The position numbers and the translations under genes were made by a program. Positions 996 through 48,048 of a stretch of 64,000 nt of DNA are shown here, in pieces. The stretch is from Lachnospiraceae bacterium (GTDB lineage: Bacteria; Bacillota; Clostridia; Lachnospirales; Lachnospiraceae). Position 1 is the first letter of the stretch; the number at the start of each line of letters is the position of its first letter. The stretch is from NCBI GenBank assembly GCA_022792535.1, contig JAAWBG010000021.1, positions 43,837 through 107,836 of the forward strand, given 5' to 3'. Below the pieces are notes generated by a model that was not told the DNA's origin, ran no database searches, and worked only from the letters and a program-made list of their open reading frames with translations.

Positions 996-1460
996 ATGCA
1001 GGTTGAAACAAGATTGTTTGGAGAGATAGAGCTAGAAGAAGAGAAAGTGATCTTTTTTGAAAAGGGAATTATTGGATTTCCTGATTGCCAAAAGTTCACC
1101 TTGATCTATGATGAGAAAGAAGATGGCAGCCATGGCGGGATTGGCTGGCTCCAGTCCTTGGATGAGCCCACCTTCGCCCTTCCGGTAATGGACCCTCTTC
1201 TGGTTAAGGAAGACTACAATCCTCAGGTGGAAGATGAAGTATTAAAACATCTTGGCAATCTTACGGAAGAGAATACTTATGTTTTGGTAACAGTGACAGC
1301 CACAGAAGATATCACGAAATTAAGCGTGAATTTAAAAGCACCCATTGTGATCAATGCAGATGAACGGAAAGCACACCAGATCATTGTGGAAGACGACTTC
1401 CCAGTGAAATTTGCAATTTACGAGATTTTACAGGCAAAAAAAGAAAAGGCGGGTGAATAG
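996..1460 (+). CDS. fliW: Flagellar assembly factor FliW (CsrA antagonist)
   Basis: [37 protein letters not shown]...[15 protein letters not shown]; adjacent to csrA. Confidence 0.95.
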
Positions 1461-1461
1461 G

Positions 1462-1677
1462 ATGCTGGCATTGACCAGAAAAAAAGGAGAATCCATCATT
1501 TTAAATAATGATATCGAGATCAGTATATTAGAGCTGCGGGGAGATCAGGTAAAGATTGGGATCAATGCACCCAAAGAAGTGCCAGTGTACCGCAAGGAAG
1601 TATATCTTCAGATCCAGAAAGAAAATGAGGCGGCGCTGTCAGTAGACAGTCTTGCAGCCTTGCGGGATATTCTATAA
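1462..1677 (+). CDS. csrA: Carbon storage regulator CsrA
   Basis: [48 protein letters not shown]; start set to internal ATG at 1462. Confidence 0.97.
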
Positions 1678-4646: not shown

Positions 4647-4685
4647 TATGTGACAGAATGAAAAATCAGAATAGATCACAAGGGG

Positions 4686-5150
4686 AAAGCCGGTGCAAAG
4701 AGATGCACCGGCTTTATAATCCTTCTGGAGCTATTAAGAAGAATCATTACATAGATTATACCTCATATCTATGATAAATGAAAAGGGCAAAACATGACGC
4801 TTTTGGGAAAATTTTTAAAAATATAGAGGAAAGCCGGTGCATATAAAACACCGGCTTTTGTGGTCCTCCCGGAGCTAAAGAAGAAGGACCACTATGTAAA
4901 TTATACTCCTCACATATATAACAATTTAGAAAGGTAAAATATGACACTTTTAAGAAAAGTTTTTGAGAATTTTTTATGAAATTTAAAAAAAGAAAAGCTG
5001 ATGCAGAATAGACAATGCATCAGCTTTTCTTTTGCGGTCTTCCTGGAGCTACAAAGGAAAAACCGCTATCTAAACTTATACCCCTCGTATATATAACAAT
5101 TGAGCAGTACAAAATATGACAGTTTTTGAGAAAGTTTTTAAAAATTTTAA
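4686..5150. repeat. Three diverged tandem copies of a structured non-coding unit (~145-160 nt)
   Basis: Strong stem-loops at 4686-4715, 4830-4858 and 4991-5030, each followed by a (C/T)GGAGCTA motif (4726, 4870, 5044), a TATATAACAAT-like box and AAA-ATGACa-cTTTT...TTTTT. The second motif is inside a perfect 8-bp stem GTGGTCCT/AGGACCAC (4860-4867/4885-4892). No ORF of note. Confidence 0.75.
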
Positions 5151-7011: not shown

Positions 7012-7039
7012 TAAATTAAAAATTAAATACTGCCGATAT
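7012..7039 (+). promoter_or_regulatory. Sigma-D-like promoter
   Basis: TAAA-N16-GCCGATAT; the -10 matches the known sigma-D consensus GCCGATAT exactly. Confidence 0.65.
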
Positions 7040-7045
7040 AATGAA

Positions 7046-7138
7046 AGATAAGAATGATAGGAAATCATTTTACGACGCATGGAAGCGATATACCATAAAG
7101 GCTAAGAGAAATGGATAAGCGTCCATTTCTCTTTTTTT
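7046..7138 (+). ncRNA. Candidate ~90-nt sRNA or leader attenuator with GGA-loop hairpins
   Basis: Between sigma-D-like promoter and rho-independent terminator (7105-7138). Contains AAUGAU-AGGAA-AUCAUU (7053-7069) and CGC-AUGGAA-GCG (7076-7087). Confidence 0.5.
7105..7138 (+). terminator. Rho-independent terminator upstream of rfbH
   Basis: AGAGAAATGGA-TAAGCG-TCCATTTCTCT then T-run. Confidence 0.85.
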
Positions 7139-7157
7139 ATCTTATAGGAGAAAAATT

Positions 7158-8498
7158 ATGTTTGAAAATAAAACAGAAGAGCAGGCAAGAGAAGAAATCC
7201 TGCATCTGGTGACAGAGTATTATAATCTATACCATAAAAATAAAAAAATTTTTGAGCCGGGAGATCGGATTGCCTATGCTTCCAGGGTCTATGATGAAAA
7301 GGAGATGTGCAACTTAGTAGATGCTTCTTTGGAATTCTGGCTGACCTCTGGCAGATATACAGTGGAGTTTGAAAAAAAATTCTCAGAATATCTGGGCGTG
7401 CAGTATTGTTCTTTGGTAAACTCAGGTTCTTCTGCCAATCTGCTGGCTTTTATGGCCTTGACTTCTCCTTTGCTGGGAGAACGTCAGGTGCTTCCGGGCG
7501 ATGAGATGATTACGGTTGCGGCAGGTTTTCCTACCACGGTGACGCCGGCCATCCAATATGGCGTAGTTCCGGTCTTTATTGATGTGACGATTCCACAGTA
7601 CAATCTGGACGTCAATCAGTTGGAGGCAGCGTTTTCAGAAAAGACAAAAGTGGTGATGGCGGCTCACACTCTGGGGAATCCTTTTGATCTGAAAGCAGTA
7701 AGGGATTTTTGTGACAGACACAATCTATGGCTGATTGAGGACAATTGCGATGCTCTTGGAACAAGATATATGATAGATGGACAAGAAAGATATACGGGAA
7801 CCATTGGGGACATCGGAACCTCTTCTTTTTATCCCCCTCACCACATGACCATGGGAGAAGGCGGAGCAGTCTATACAGATCAGCCTTTATTGCACAAATG
7901 CATTCGTTCTCTCCGGGACTGGGGCCGGGACTGTATCTGCACCTCTGGTCAGGACAATCTGTGTGGCCACAGATTTGACCGGCAGTATGGGGAGCTTCCG
8001 ATGGGCTATGATCATAAATATGTCTATTCCCATTTTGGATATAATTTGAAGGCAACAGATATGCAGGCGGCTATTGGCTGTGCACAAATTGATAAGATGC
8101 CGGAGTTTGCAGCCCGAAGAAGACATAACTTTGAGAGATTGCTGGCAGGGCTGAAAGGATGTGAAAAACAATTGATCCTTCCAGCGCCCTGCGAAAATTC
8201 TCGGCCAAGCTGGTTTGGATGTCTGCTTACGTGCAGGGAAGGAATAGACCGCAATGAAGTGGTTGCATATCTGGAAAACCATGGAATACAGACACGGATG
8301 CTGTTTGCAGGAAATCTAATTAAACATCCTTGCTTTAACCAGATGCGGATTTTGGGCAGGGGATATCGCGTGATAGGAGATTTAAAACATACAGATCAGA
8401 TTATGAATGATACTTTTTGGGTAGGAGTTTATCCAGGAATGACAGACGAGATGGTTGATTATATGGCAGAGATAATTCGAGAAGCAGTAAACCAATAA
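7158..8498 (+). CDS. rfbH: CDP-6-deoxy-4-hexulose 3-dehydrase (E1, RfbH/DdhC)
   Basis: DegT-fold PLP protein with SSFYPPHHMTMGEGGAVYT, where His replaces the PLP Lys as in the RfbH family. Confidence 0.92.
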   Translation: MFENKTEEQAREEILHLVTEYYNLYHKNKKIFEPGDRIAYASRVYDEKEMCNLVDASLEFWLTSGRYTVEFEKKFSEYLGVQYCSLVNSGSSANLLAFMALTSPLLGERQVLPGDEMITVAAGFPTTVTPAIQYGVVPVFIDVTIPQYNLDVNQLEAAFSEKTKVVMAAHTLGNPFDLKAVRDFCDRHNLWLIEDNCDALGTRYMIDGQERYTGTIGDIGTSSFYPPHHMTMGEGGAVYTDQPLLHKCIRSLRDWGRDCICTSGQDNLCGHRFDRQYGELPMGYDHKYVYSHFGYNLKATDMQAAIGCAQIDKMPEFAARRRHNFERLLAGLKGCEKQLILPAPCENSRPSWFGCLLTCREGIDRNEVVAYLENHGIQTRMLFAGNLIKHPCFNQMRILGRGYRVIGDLKHTDQIMNDTFWVGVYPGMTDEMVDYMAEIIREAVNQ

Positions 8499-18466: not shown

Positions 18467-19624
18467 TTATTCTTTCCAGATGGGGTGTTTCAGATTCCAT
18501 CCTTCCGCTGTTTTTTCCCAGATATGATCAGATCTCCAGGAATCAATAAATTCATGGAACTGCTCTTCTGTAATATCGCAGTATTTTAAGAAAGTATCAT
18601 AGTATTTCTGAGGAAATTCCCCGTCATATTTTTTCACCAGATCGATTCCTTCCTCCCGGTTAATTCTTCCATCTCGGATTTCGTGGGCGGCGTCTGCAGT
18701 AGTGCGGCCGATGCCGAACTTGATATAGGAAAGATAATAGTGGAATCCGTCCAATTTGTCGTCTAAGCTGGCATATTTAGAGTAAGTACCTTCGCTCCGC
18801 TCAGGATTGCAGACAAATCCATTGTTTTCTGAACAATAATGGTAATTTTCCTGTGGATCCCAATATTTGTAGTAACTGAAGAAGTGGATTTCCGTATTGT
18901 TTTTCTTGATATCTTCATAATCAGGAGCCATATACGGAAGCATATCTTCCTCAGTCAAACCATATTTGGTCCAGACTTCAGGTCCCATTCCTGAGAAGTA
19001 ATGTTTGTTGTGATCTGTAATCTCCCGTGTGGGCTTATCGGCGTTTTTCATGTCTCCGCCGTATTCTACTTCTCCATTCTCTCCATACATAATAAGGGAG
19101 ATACCGTATTTTACAGCGATCTGCAGAGGAAAATTTGTCTGTCCAAAAATAAAGGGCTGGAAAGGATCGCCTAAATGCTCAAAGGCAAGTTTTGTCAGCT
19201 TCCGGTTTACAGTTCCGTTGGGTCTGCCTAAAATATTATCGAATCCTCCGATATCAATAAAGGCGTCCAGATTTTTTCTTCCGATCTCTGTGGGTACAAG
19301 GGGAGACCATGTAACGGTAAGAGGATGCATACCATATTTATATTTCAGCTGGTGAGCTACGAAGCCTCCGTCTTTTCCGCCGCTGCAGGGTACGATCACA
19401 TCCCAGGAACCGTCTTTGGAACGGAATCGGTCGCAGAGTTCCTTTAATTCTTGTTCTCTTGCGTCCCAGTCTATGTTTCTTTTCACTTCATTAAATCTGC
19501 AGGCGCTGCAGACTCCTTCCTCGTCAAAAGTGATTCTGGGACGCTGGTTGGACATGGTACATTTTTTGCAGTACTTTACTTCTTCTGGTAAATGATACAT
19601 TTTGATTAAATCTCTTTTTTCCAT
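18467..19624 (-). CDS. N-acetyl sugar amidotransferase (WbpG/PseA-like)
   Basis: YCKKCTMSNQRPRITFDEEGVCSACRFNE; SGGKDGGFVAHQLKYKYGMHPLTVTWSP PP-loop. Confidence 0.88.
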   Translation of the reverse strand: MEKRDLIKMYHLPEEVKYCKKCTMSNQRPRITFDEEGVCSACRFNEVKRNIDWDAREQELKELCDRFRSKDGSWDVIVPCSGGKDGGFVAHQLKYKYGMHPLTVTWSPLVPTEIGRKNLDAFIDIGGFDNILGRPNGTVNRKLTKLAFEHLGDPFQPFIFGQTNFPLQIAVKYGISLIMYGENGEVEYGGDMKNADKPTREITDHNKHYFSGMGPEVWTKYGLTEEDMLPYMAPDYEDIKKNNTEIHFFSYYKYWDPQENYHYCSENNGFVCNPERSEGTYSKYASLDDKLDGFHYYLSYIKFGIGRTTADAAHEIRDGRINREEGIDLVKKYDGEFPQKYYDTFLKYCDITEEQFHEFIDSWRSDHIWEKTAEGWNLKHPIWKE

Positions 19625-19659: not shown

Positions 19660-19784
19660 ACCAACAAAAAAGACACTGCATCAAGTGCAGTGTTCCTAAT
19701 ATCATCACAATCCAATCAAAAAAGCGATTCCATTCGCACCTGACAAAATCCATTTTGCTACGGTTAGTTGTTTCAATTTTTACA
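19660..19784 (-). ncRNA. Candidate ~125-nt CsrA-binding sRNA or attenuator leader on minus strand
   Basis: Minus strand: CAAA-AUGGAU-UUUG (19744-19757), GCGA-AUGGAA-UCGC + U6 (19724-19737), further UUGGAU and UAGGAA motifs, then ACACTGCA-CTTGA-TGCAGTGT-CTTTTTT terminator (19664-19693). Confidence 0.5.
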
Positions 19785-19790
19785 AATTAA

Positions 19791-19817
19791 TCATCGGACA
19801 TAGTGTTGCAAAACTTA
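19791..19817 (-). promoter_or_regulatory. Sigma-D-like promoter (minus strand)
   Basis: Minus strand TAAG-N15-TCCGATGA. Confidence 0.45.
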
Positions 19818-20096: not shown

Positions 20097-20135
20097 TGCA
20101 GCATGGAGGCTGCAGTATATTCAAGGAGGAAAATC
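20097..20135 (+). promoter_or_regulatory. Predicted CsrA-binding hairpin plus Shine-Dalgarno in flagellin leader
   Basis: TGCAGC-AUGGAG-GCTGCA (6-bp stem, hexaloop with AUGGA) then TTCAAGGAGGAAAATC Shine-Dalgarno. Confidence 0.7.
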
Positions 20136-20137
20136 TT

Positions 20138-21349
20138 ATGGCAATGATCGTACAACACAATCTTACAGCAATGAATTCCAACCGTCAGTTGGGTATCACC
20201 ACAGGTTCTCAGGCAAAATCATCTGAAAAATTATCATCTGGTTACAGAATCAACCGCGCAGGCGATGATGCAGCAGGATTAAAGATTTCTGAAAAAATGA
20301 GAAGTCAGGTTCGTGGTTTGAATCGTGCTTCCACAAATGCACAGGATGGCGTATCCTTAATCCAGACCGCTGAAGGTGCTTTAAATGAAGCTCATTCTAT
20401 CCTTCAGAGAATGAATGAATTGGCAGTTCAGGGTGCTAACGACACCAACGAGAACATTGACCGTGAAGCAATCAACGAAGAGTTAGATCAGCTGACACAG
20501 GAATTGGATAGAATCTCTACCACAACACAGTTCAACAAACAGAACTTACTGGATGGTTCTTTCCAGAGCAAAAATCTTCATGTTGGCGCTAATGCAAATC
20601 AGAAGATTCAGATCAGTATCGACAACATGAATGCTGAGACATTAGGTCTGAGAAGCATCAAAGGTCAGGAATTAGGCGATACACAGAAAGGTAAAGAGAT
20701 CTCTTCTGTTACCTATAAGGGAATGACCTATCAGTGGGATGCAAGCAAAACAGGAACCTCTAACCAGGCATTGGCGCTCAGCGACTTTAAGGCTGCTATC
20801 TCCAATAAAGCTTCTGATGATCAGTATGCTCAGCAGGTTTCAGGAACAAGCATATTTTATCTGCAGACAGGCGACAGCACTACTCAGTATGCAACAGCAG
20901 CATCTGCTAAGGCAGCTGACGTCAGCGTAGCAAAAGCAGCAGCATCTGCAGATTTTGCAGCTAGTTTCGAGAAATATGTGGATACAGCAAATACAGCTGC
21001 AAATGGTCCGACAGTTGCAGCTTCCGGTGAAGAATTCTCCATGGATAAACCAGGCGTTGACAGCTATGCAAGAGCAAATGCAACTATCACTGCTGTACAG
21101 AATGCGATCAACAAAGTATCTTCACAGAGATCCGCTCTTGGTGCAATCCAGAACAGATTAGAGCATACAATTGCGAACTTAGATAACGTAGCTGAGAATA
21201 CTCAGGCAGCAGAGTCCCGTATCCGCGATCTTGATATGGCTTCTGAAATGGTTGAGTACAGCAAGAATAATATTCTTGCTCAGGCAGGTCAGTCTATGCT
21301 TGCTCAGGCAAATCAGTCTACACAGGGTGTATTGTCCTTGTTACAGTAA
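20138..21349 (+). CDS. Flagellin
   Basis: MAMIVQHNLTAMNSNRQLGITTGSQAKSSEKLSSGYRINRAGDDAAGLKISEKMR...ILAQAGQSMLAQANQSTQGVLSLLQ. Confidence 0.97.
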   Translation: MAMIVQHNLTAMNSNRQLGITTGSQAKSSEKLSSGYRINRAGDDAAGLKISEKMRSQVRGLNRASTNAQDGVSLIQTAEGALNEAHSILQRMNELAVQGANDTNENIDREAINEELDQLTQELDRISTTTQFNKQNLLDGSFQSKNLHVGANANQKIQISIDNMNAETLGLRSIKGQELGDTQKGKEISSVTYKGMTYQWDASKTGTSNQALALSDFKAAISNKASDDQYAQQVSGTSIFYLQTGDSTTQYATAASAKAADVSVAKAAASADFAASFEKYVDTANTAANGPTVAASGEEFSMDKPGVDSYARANATITAVQNAINKVSSQRSALGAIQNRLEHTIANLDNVAENTQAAESRIRDLDMASEMVEYSKNNILAQAGQSMLAQANQSTQGVLSLLQ

Positions 21350-34437: not shown

Positions 34438-34537
34438 AATATGTTGAAAGGGGCGGTTGTTTGGTTCATTGCCCGCGGAAATAGAAGAATAGAACAGCTG
34501 TCAAGGAAGACAGCGAATAAAACAGGAGGTTTCACAA

Positions 34538-35614
34538 ATGAAAAGTGAAGAACTCAGCCGTTTCCTTATAATGGGAAATGCAACGGTTGTGGAAGCAATG
34601 CAGAAAATTGATCTGAATTCAAAGGGAATTTTATTTATTATAGAGGAAGAAGAGAAACTGGTGGGTGTGGTCACAGACGGAGATATCCGAAGATGGCTGA
34701 TTCGAACGGGAAATCTGCAGGGAGAAATGCAGGAGATTATGAACAGAAATCCCAAAGTGATTTCCTGCAAAGAGCGGAAAAAAGCGAAGGAATATATGGC
34801 AAAACATCTGATTACTGCTTTGCCGGTAGTGACCAGAGAAAATAAGATCAAAGATATTATCTTTAAAGAAGAAAGTAATCTTACAGAGAAGAAAGAAGAG
34901 AAATTATCTCTCCAGGAGATACCAGTTGTTATCATGGCAGGAGGGAAGGGGACGAGGCTTTATCCTTATACGAGAATTCTGCCGAAGCCCCTGATACCTA
35001 TCGGCGATATTCCCATTATGGAGCGTATTATCAATGCGTTTCGGGAGTATGGGGTAAAAAATTTTTACGCAACGGTCAATTATAGAAAAAGCATGATTAA
35101 ATCTTATTTTTCAGAAAATATTGCGGATTATCAGCTGACCTACGTGGAGGAGGATAAACCTCTGGGAACAGCAGGGAGCCTTCCTCTGATCCAGGAGGAA
35201 TTTCATACGCCGCTGGTGGTGACCAACTGCGATATTTTGATTCATGCAGATTACACAGATATTTACAAGCATCATTTGGAGACGGGAAATGAGCTGACCA
35301 TTGTGACTGCTCTGAAAAATATTGTGGTCCCTTATGGTGTGATTCATTCCAGCGAAAACGGCAGGATTCAATCTATGGAAGAGAAACCAAAACTTTCCTA
35401 TTTTGTGAACACGGGAATGTATGTGTTAAGTCCCAAGGTGTTGCAGGAAATTCCGGAGGATACTTTTTTCCACATGACAGATTTGGCGGATCAACTGCTG
35501 GCGGAGGGACGCAAAGTGGGAATGTACCCTATCAGTGAAGATTCTTTTTTGGACATGGGAGAATTCGAAGAGATGCGCCGTATGGAAGAAAAGCTGGATT
35601 TAAAGGCGGAGTGA
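34538..35614 (+). CDS. CBS-domain nucleotidyltransferase (PtmE-like)
   Basis: N-terminal CBS pair; VVIMAGGKGTRLYPYTRILPKPLIPIGDIPIMERIINAF. Confidence 0.85.
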   Translation: MKSEELSRFLIMGNATVVEAMQKIDLNSKGILFIIEEEEKLVGVVTDGDIRRWLIRTGNLQGEMQEIMNRNPKVISCKERKKAKEYMAKHLITALPVVTRENKIKDIIFKEESNLTEKKEEKLSLQEIPVVIMAGGKGTRLYPYTRILPKPLIPIGDIPIMERIINAFREYGVKNFYATVNYRKSMIKSYFSENIADYQLTYVEEDKPLGTAGSLPLIQEEFHTPLVVTNCDILIHADYTDIYKHHLETGNELTIVTALKNIVVPYGVIHSSENGRIQSMEEKPKLSYFVNTGMYVLSPKVLQEIPEDTFFHMTDLADQLLAEGRKVGMYPISEDSFLDMGEFEEMRRMEEKLDLKAE

Positions 35615-46749: not shown

Positions 46750-48048
46750 TTAACAATAGCGATCCATCATCATACCAGAATAGATGGAAGTAATATAAGG
46801 GGTTACCAGGCTTTTTCCTGGATTCTTGTAGGTAACGATAATTTTATCCACATATTTCATAGGATCTAGAGAAGCATTGTTCGCCTTGGTATTTAACAGA
46901 TTTTTAAAATCATTTAACACAGAAAGATGTTCTTCTGAATTCTCCTCTGAAACAGATTCCGTCAACAAAGCTTTGTCTATGGAGATCTCGCCATCTTCGT
47001 TTACCATAAGTCCCATGCTTTCCAGGTCGTTCTGGAAGGTAAATGCGGTACTGCTCATATCTCGGTACAGTTTTACACTTTGATGCTGAGAGCCTGAATA
47101 TTTGCTGGCTGTGTGCAGAATGGAATTGTAAGAGTCTACCAGGGTCTGAATATTTTCGGCCATGGCGTCTGCATTTGTCTTAAAGCCAATAACAGCAGGA
47201 TTGCCCTCCTCGCTGACTCCGTGAAGAGATAATTCAAATACATGATTGATGGTAAAGGTATTTGAATGGGAGGAATGGCCTGTTCCGTCTAACAGGAAAA
47301 CAGCGTTCTTGGCTTCCTGGGATACATGGTCAATTCCAAGGGCTTCCACTGCAGAGATGGAGCTTCGTGTTCCCTGTGGGAAAATGGAGAAAAGAAAAGA
47401 TTCTCCATCGCTGATTCCTGTGGAAACAGATTCAATCTGCAATGCGCTTAAACCATTTTGATCCTCCACAACAGAACCTGTTAACCCGATGTCAGCATTG
47501 CTGATCAGATTGGCCAGCTTATTCTGTGTGGTGTAATTGGTATCATCAGAATGGATATTAAATTGAAATTCAAATGTTGAAGTGCTGTTTTCTAAATCAA
47601 AAGAATAAGAACCAGGAGAAAGAGATAGACGGTCTTTATCCAAAAAATTTCCCAGATTGATCTGAGGGGACGCCAGCTCTTTTACCTCCAAAGAGAAGCT
47701 GCCCATTTCCTCTGATTCTTTATGATTCCCAATGTATTCAGCAGAAACTACATCTTCCTGAGAGGAAAATGCAATTTTTTTCTGAAAAGCGTTTCCGATA
47801 CCCTCTTCTGCGTCAGAAAGAGAAGCAACCACATTTTTAATGATACGCGTACTTTCCTTGATATCTATGGCAAACTTCTGAACATCCCCTGAGTGCTTAA
47901 TCTTATAGAGGGGGGAATCTTTATTGATTTTGACGATTGTATTATAGATATTACGCAATTCACTTTTCTTATGTGAATCGTAGCGGGACGCCGACTGATT
48001 GGCATATGTGCTTAAATAATAATTATAAGCGGTATCAATAGCGGCCAT
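46750..48048 (-). CDS. Divergent FliD-like / flagellar cap-like protein
   Basis: DIKESTRIIKNVVASLSDAEEGIGNAFQKKIAFSSQEDVVSAEYIG...; C-terminal helical segment with DSYNSILHTASKYSGSQHQ; opposite a flagellin gene. Confidence 0.6.
   Translation of the reverse strand: MAAIDTAYNYYLSTYANQSASRYDSHKKSELRNIYNTIVKINKDSPLYKIKHSGDVQKFAIDIKESTRIIKNVVASLSDAEEGIGNAFQKKIAFSSQEDVVSAEYIGNHKESEEMGSFSLEVKELASPQINLGNFLDKDRLSLSPGSYSFDLENSTSTFEFQFNIHSDDTNYTTQNKLANLISNADIGLTGSVVEDQNGLSALQIESVSTGISDGESFLFSIFPQGTRSSISAVEALGIDHVSQEAKNAVFLLDGTGHSSHSNTFTINHVFELSLHGVSEEGNPAVIGFKTNADAMAENIQTLVDSYNSILHTASKYSGSQHQSVKLYRDMSSTAFTFQNDLESMGLMVNEDGEISIDKALLTESVSEENSEEHLSVLNDFKNLLNTKANNASLDPMKYVDKIIVTYKNPGKSLVTPYITSIYSGMMMDRYC

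Follow-up and report, generated by a model that had tools for sequence, protein, structure and literature searches.

The stretch of Lachnospiraceae DNA analysed here (64,000 nucleotides, called the window) carries a compact element directly 5′ of rfbH, in which a sigma-D promoter, two GGA hairpins and an intrinsic terminator follow one another. Is this a gene for a free small RNA, or a leader through which CsrA could control the glycan genes that follow? The first-pass annotation had proposed either a small family of motility-coupled, CsrA-binding sRNAs or a glycan operon that CsrA controls by attenuation. The parts of the element are as follows.

7012–7039, plus strand: sigma-D promoter, as read from the sequence (TAAA at 7012–7015, N16, GCCGATAT at 7032–7039)
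About 7046–7138, plus strand: predicted leader or small RNA of ~93 nt, its 5′ start placed from the promoter
7053–7069, plus strand: hairpin 1, AAUGAU-AGGAA-AUCAUU, with its GGA at 7060–7062
7076–7087, plus strand: hairpin 2, CGC-AUGGAA-GCG, a canonical ANGGAN hexaloop with its GGA at 7081–7083
7104–7138, plus strand: intrinsic terminator, with arms AGAGAAATGGA (7105–7115) and TCCATTTCTCT (7122–7132) and a T-run to 7138
7113–7115, plus strand: GGA in the terminator 5′ arm, paired inside the stem
7158–8498, plus strand: rfbH of the CDP-sugar pathway, the first gene 3′ of the element (NCBIfam NF011936, 711 bits)

A conserved element 5′ of rfbH

The promoter, hairpins, terminator, T-run and rfbH all lie where the first-pass annotation had placed them, and its estimate of a ~90-nt RNA agrees with the predicted transcript of 93 nt, which has a strong fold and a terminator. 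Computed on 7040–7139, this fold beats 200 of 200 shuffles (z −4.05), and the terminator scan returned one site, with 13 pairs at 7104–7133, against 0.1 expected. Both GGA-loop hairpins are indeed present, but only hairpin 2 has the canonical ANGGAN loop, hairpin 1 being an AGGAA pentaloop. The promoter spacing falls within the N16–17 published for sigma-28 promoters of the related Butyrivibrio fibrisolvens (PMC3720852). Since the exact sigma-D pattern has only 2 matches in the 3.19-Mb genome versus 5 for a reversed control, the consensus match alone is not significant; the significance of this promoter lies in its conservation.

This conservation is considerable. Among 29 genomes of the genus, BLAST and a covariance model located the element (family 1a) in six, namely the window genome, G013, G014, G020, G022 and G042, with ~80% pairwise identity from the −35 box to the terminator. 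Mean pairwise identity among the six copies is 83% in the promoter (29 nt) and 78% in the transcript, and it is 31% in the 100 nt upstream and 26% in the 100 nt on the other side. Conservation in six genomes between unconserved flanks rules out a chance origin. The hairpin 2 core ACGCATGGA(A/G)GCG is retained in all six copies, as is AGGA in hairpin 1, whose stem is weaker and shifted in the relatives. A stretch AUAYACCAU, or a close form of it, is also conserved in family 1a without any predicted pairing role. Because the stems hardly vary, the six aligned copies display no two-sided covariation, and the structure of family 1a, as judged from sequence, rests on loop conservation and on the variant copies.

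Two such variants (family 1b), having a different terminator, are a second copy in G020 and a copy in G194, a member of another genus, where it lies just 3′ of a flagellin gene. A GGA in the terminator 5′ arm is found in 8 of 8 family-1 copies, its place being shifted in G020. In G023, a homologous promoter drives a glycosyltransferase gene with no terminator in between. The carriers named by a pattern scan are Petralouisia muris NM01_1-7b, Lachnospiraceae bacterium A2, isolate C51_74_MI_BP, Eubacterium sp. S35_Bin1 and one uncultured Lachnospiraceae MAG; a spirochaete match (L092), whose flanks are unlike the element, was discarded as chance. The matches of models R1/R3 in other genera proved on inspection to be mostly ordinary terminators, with G194 the only convincing member, and the one in G060 is a flaG leader with a sigma-D promoter and a CACAUGGAGGUG hairpin.

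Promoter, transcript and terminator are thus conserved together, and inspection revealed no constant reading frame, as would befit a discrete noncoding RNA gene. A short ORF over hairpin 2 (MEAIYHK...) was rejected: single-base insertions break its frame in the window and G014 copies, and it lacks a constant start or ribosome site. Rfam gave no match to the element above its curated threshold.

A second family and the CsrA-type sites

The design recurs on the other strand of the window. It is listed here with the flagellin leader, for comparison, and with fliW and csrA, which encode the presumed protein partners.

19662–19817, minus strand: whole family-2 element, composed of two GGA hairpins and a terminator behind a −10 box near 19797
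19724–19757, minus strand: the two family-2 hairpins, CAAA-AUGGAU-UUUG and GCGA-AUGGAA-UCGC, with hexaloops spaced by 20 nt
18467–19624, minus strand: N-acetyl sugar amidotransferase gene, starting 41 nt after the family-2 element
20098–20142, plus strand: flagellin leader with a dual CsrA-type site, formed by the hairpin UGCAGC-AUGGAG-GCUGCA and by AAGGAGG at the ribosome site, the two GGAs being offset by 20 nt
996–1460, plus strand: fliW (Pfam; nearest solved structure the FliW of 5dmb)
1462–1677, plus strand: csrA (Pfam; nearest solved structure the CsrA of 5dmb)

The first-pass annotation had taken the element at 19660–19817 as a recurrence of the one before rfbH. The two do have the same design, but comparison found no clear sequence homology, and they are treated here as separate families. 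Six genomes carry family 2, and G012 has it twice. Most of its copies have the promoter TAAA-N15-TCCGATAT, those of the window and G022 being weaker, and all of them have two exact ANGGAN hexaloops (CAAA-AUGGAU-UUUG and GCGA-ANGGAN-UCGC) at an invariant spacing of 20 nt. Two base pairs of its terminator have changes on both sides. In copies L058, L060, L062, L064 and L066, the first terminator and its T-run are directly followed by another hairpin, CGCAGAUU...AAUCUGCG. Among 397 genomes of the bacterial family, searched for both element families with strict filters, no strong match to family 2 turned up beyond the genus. Nor did a new family emerge when the csrA regions of other genus members were scanned for more elements with a promoter and a terminator. 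One or both families are carried by 10 of the 29 genus genomes; the elements are therefore not essential to the CsrA-FliW circuit.

As for that circuit, CsrA was found in 29 of 29 genus genomes, and FliW adjoins csrA in every region fetched. The CsrA of the window retains L4, R6 and R44, as read from its sequence. Most genus genomes also have extra CsrA-domain genes, with up to ten CsrA-domain matches per genome. Two of them, in the window genome, are at G000:C12:24899-25048 and G000:C71:7014-7163 (L130 and L131, ~95–110 aa; L131 starts MLKLTVKAGEYLLVGDEIKVVFTGG), and the C71 gene lies directly 5′ of a flagellin gene.

In solved CsrA/RsmE complexes the bound loop is an ANGGAN hexaloop, the stems of selected CsrA ligands mostly have no more than 4 pairs, and a CsrA dimer can bridge two sites at a distance of 10–63 nt, the best spacing being above 18 nt (PMC7652899). 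Hairpin 2 of family 1 and both hairpins of family 2 present such a loop on a short stem, hairpin 1 of family 1 does not, and the GGA offsets of both families (18–21 nt in family 1, 20 nt in family 2) are inside the dual-site range (PMC7652899). In flagellin-type leaders of the genus, the dual GGA offset is exactly 20 nt in 27 of 27. From these features, CsrA would be expected to bind the element RNAs.

Only six ANGGAN hairpins with at least 4 pairs exist in the window: those in the leaders of flaG, flagellin, a fliD-like gene and a sugar-nucleotide gene at 34538, and the two of family 2 (with three pairs, hairpin 2 of family 1 falls just under this cut). In 798 kb made up of the window and 40 loci, which are related, so that the counts are not independent events, such hairpins number 94 outside versus 42 inside genes, while control hairpins with [TCG]NGGAN loops number 18 outside versus 90 inside. 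The noncoding enrichment thus needs the A at loop position 1.

Several other leaders carry similar sites. The fliD-like gene (46750–48048) has a sigma-D type −10 box and a CsrA-type hairpin, UUUC-ACGGAU-GAAA, beside its ribosome site (48168–48050, minus strand), and a resembling leader occurs in L088. At 34498–34541, a hairpin GCUGUC-AAGGAA-GACAGC, with the loop type of the flagellin leader, lies 5′ of the site where ribosomes would bind to translate a CBS-domain sugar-nucleotidyltransferase gene. At L070:12902-13035, L076:5637-5760 and L090:14429-14600, a sigma-D type promoter, a flagellin-type GGA hairpin and an ORF of 14–28 aa, possibly a leader peptide, precede glycan genes.

Placement before glycan genes and the competing readings

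What the first-pass annotation overlooked is the placement of the copies. Of the 14 copies, 11 (arguably 12) have their terminator end 19–95 nt 5′ of a same-strand sugar or glycan gene, which differs between most copies. These downstream genes, named by profile matches or judged from sequence, are the following.

Family-1 copy of the window: rfbH
Family-1 copies of G014 and G042: acetaldehyde-dehydrogenase-like gene
Family-1 copy of G022: glycosyltransferase-like gene
Family-1b copy of G194: deacetylase-like gene
Family-2 copies of the window and G022: N-acetyl sugar amidotransferase gene
Two copies of G012: rfbH, and a cupin-type sugar isomerase-like gene
Copy of G019: aminotransferase-like gene
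Copy of G021: cupin-like gene

In G013, an apparent broken glycosyltransferase start lies ~78 nt 3′, beside a transposase-like ORF. The exceptions are both G020 copies, whose nearest downstream genes are 860 and 676 nt off. The window genome, G022 and G012 have two copies each, before different genes. Since glycan genes mostly run in one direction here, the shared strand counts for less than the short distance. A gap of 19–45 nt is too small to hold another promoter, which leaves the downstream genes dependent on read-through or on an upstream transcript. Elsewhere in the window (4680–5130), three diverged tandem units of ~150–175 nt, which contain a GGAGCTA motif and hairpins resembling terminators, were observed between a flgN-like gene and a glycosyltransferase gene.

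The promoter, hairpins and terminator, together with this placement, are shown by the comparison of genomes, and 11 of the 14 copies have the layout of an attenuator, that is, promoter, leader and intrinsic terminator directly 5′ of a same-strand gene. By analogy, the copies resemble a leader employed repeatedly for operons with one kind of function more than a free sRNA, and placement before differing glycan genes favours a leader or attenuator. As for the first-pass annotation, the cross-genome comparison bears out a sigma-D promoter, hairpins of CsrA type and a small family, and between its two options placement tips the choice towards attenuation. Our favoured reading, at just under even odds (roughly 0.48), is that the element is a sigma-D leader RNA of a flagellin-glycan operon in which CsrA occupancy sets terminator read-through.

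Under the leader reading, sigma-D RNA polymerase would start at ~7046, the two GGA hairpins would bind a CsrA dimer, and the polymerase would then meet the intrinsic terminator just 5′ of rfbH. How often the polymerase then continues into the sugar genes would depend on how far CsrA fills the GGA sites, among them the one in the terminator 5′ arm, a plausible CsrA contact. Since FliW and cytoplasmic flagellin set CsrA activity, the leader would link the provision of sugars to the making or export of flagellin. The terminated ~93-nt RNA, with a dual site like that of flagellin mRNA, may double as a CsrA decoy. We infer CsrA binding, the control of read-through, its direction of effect and the decoy role alike. 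Several points speak against the leader reading: folding found no competing antiterminator, opening the GGAs of family 1 costs about 7–12 kcal/mol, mostly in the terminator, hairpin 1 is non-canonical with a varying stem, the two G020 copies stand apart, and carriage is limited to 10 of 29 genomes. The fuller version, a riboswitch-like leader family that reads free CsrA (the flagellin-FliW export state) by read-through and whose terminated form is a CsrA decoy, is doubtful.

The main and serious rival, although rather unlikely, is a trans-acting CsrA sponge, in which the sigma-D ~93-nt RNA mimics the flagellin-mRNA site and titrates CsrA alongside FliW, its position before glycan genes being incidental or giving weak read-through expression. 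The strong conserved terminator without an antiterminator and the dual GGA sites spaced as in the flagellin leader agree well with a sponge, but two or three GGA per RNA are few beside the ~18 of CsrB, and a near-constant short gap to glycan genes, with several copies per genome before different genes, is unexpected for a free sRNA. The G020 copy without a gene within 860 nt 3′ has been retained, as a sponge would be; however, the −10 box of this stand-alone copy is damaged, having lost its G (CCAATAT).

Improbable is a conserved sigma-D leader for another ligand, be it a CsrA-like paralogue, another RNA-binding protein or an mRNA pairing with the unpaired AUAUACCAUAAA. The two further CsrA-domain genes of the genome, one beside another flagellin gene, and the retained AUAYACCAU of family 1a would suit such a leader, but its loop sequence and spacing match the flagellin and flaG leader sites of the same genomes. 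A LoaP/RfaH-type antitermination factor is unlikely here, since only one nusG-family gene, and no specialised NusG paralogue, was found in the assembly (93% complete). That the promoter and terminator merely lower glycan expression, with functionless GGA hairpins, is very improbable: each part is common and shuffles yield ~2.65 ANGGAN hairpins (≥4 bp) per 64 kb, but in both families few parts are as well conserved as the hairpin cores, and the noncoding enrichment depends on the A at loop position 1.

Known systems and meaning for gut Lachnospiraceae

The closest points of comparison each agree with the element in part. The B. subtilis hag leader, with its CsrA-FliW partner switching, has in common CsrA and FliW, an upstream GGA plus a second site, and the sigma-D gene class, and its dual-site geometry resembles the flagellin leaders of this genus; however, hag is repressed at its ribosome site, whereas the GGA hairpins of the element are followed by a terminator and a glycan gene instead of the start codon of flagellin. 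The gammaproteobacterial CsrB/CsrC and RsmY/RsmZ are likewise noncoding RNAs with GGA hairpin loops and a terminator. CsrB, however, has ~18 repeats (PMC7652899) in place of two loop GGAs and a third paired in the terminator, and is under the control of BarA-UvrY type systems, whereas the element has a sigma-D promoter before glycan genes in FliW-bearing Firmicutes. The E. coli pgaA leader, with CsrA-promoted Rho termination, is also a polysaccharide-operon leader with CsrA sites tied to transcription termination, but it terminates via Rho, whereas the terminator of the element is intrinsic and its CsrA binding is predicted. McaS and other base-pairing sRNAs (at least 2 GGA motifs) illustrate that few GGA sites can titrate CsrA, but they differ in bacteria, promoters and genomic position. 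The literature covered, with subscription papers mostly outside it and hence as weak evidence, describes neither glycan leaders under CsrA control nor sponge RNAs for CsrA in Firmicutes.

In gut Lachnospiraceae, the supply of flagellin sugars may be linked to flagellum assembly by an RNA switch or decoy that would be new for this group. The riboswitch-like reading, if true, would mean that in these Firmicutes CsrA is acted on jointly by FliW and a regulatory RNA. The elements provide concrete candidates in gut Lachnospiraceae. If CsrA controls them, sugar supply would stand under the same checkpoint as flagellin translation, which would bear on the decoration of commensal flagellins.
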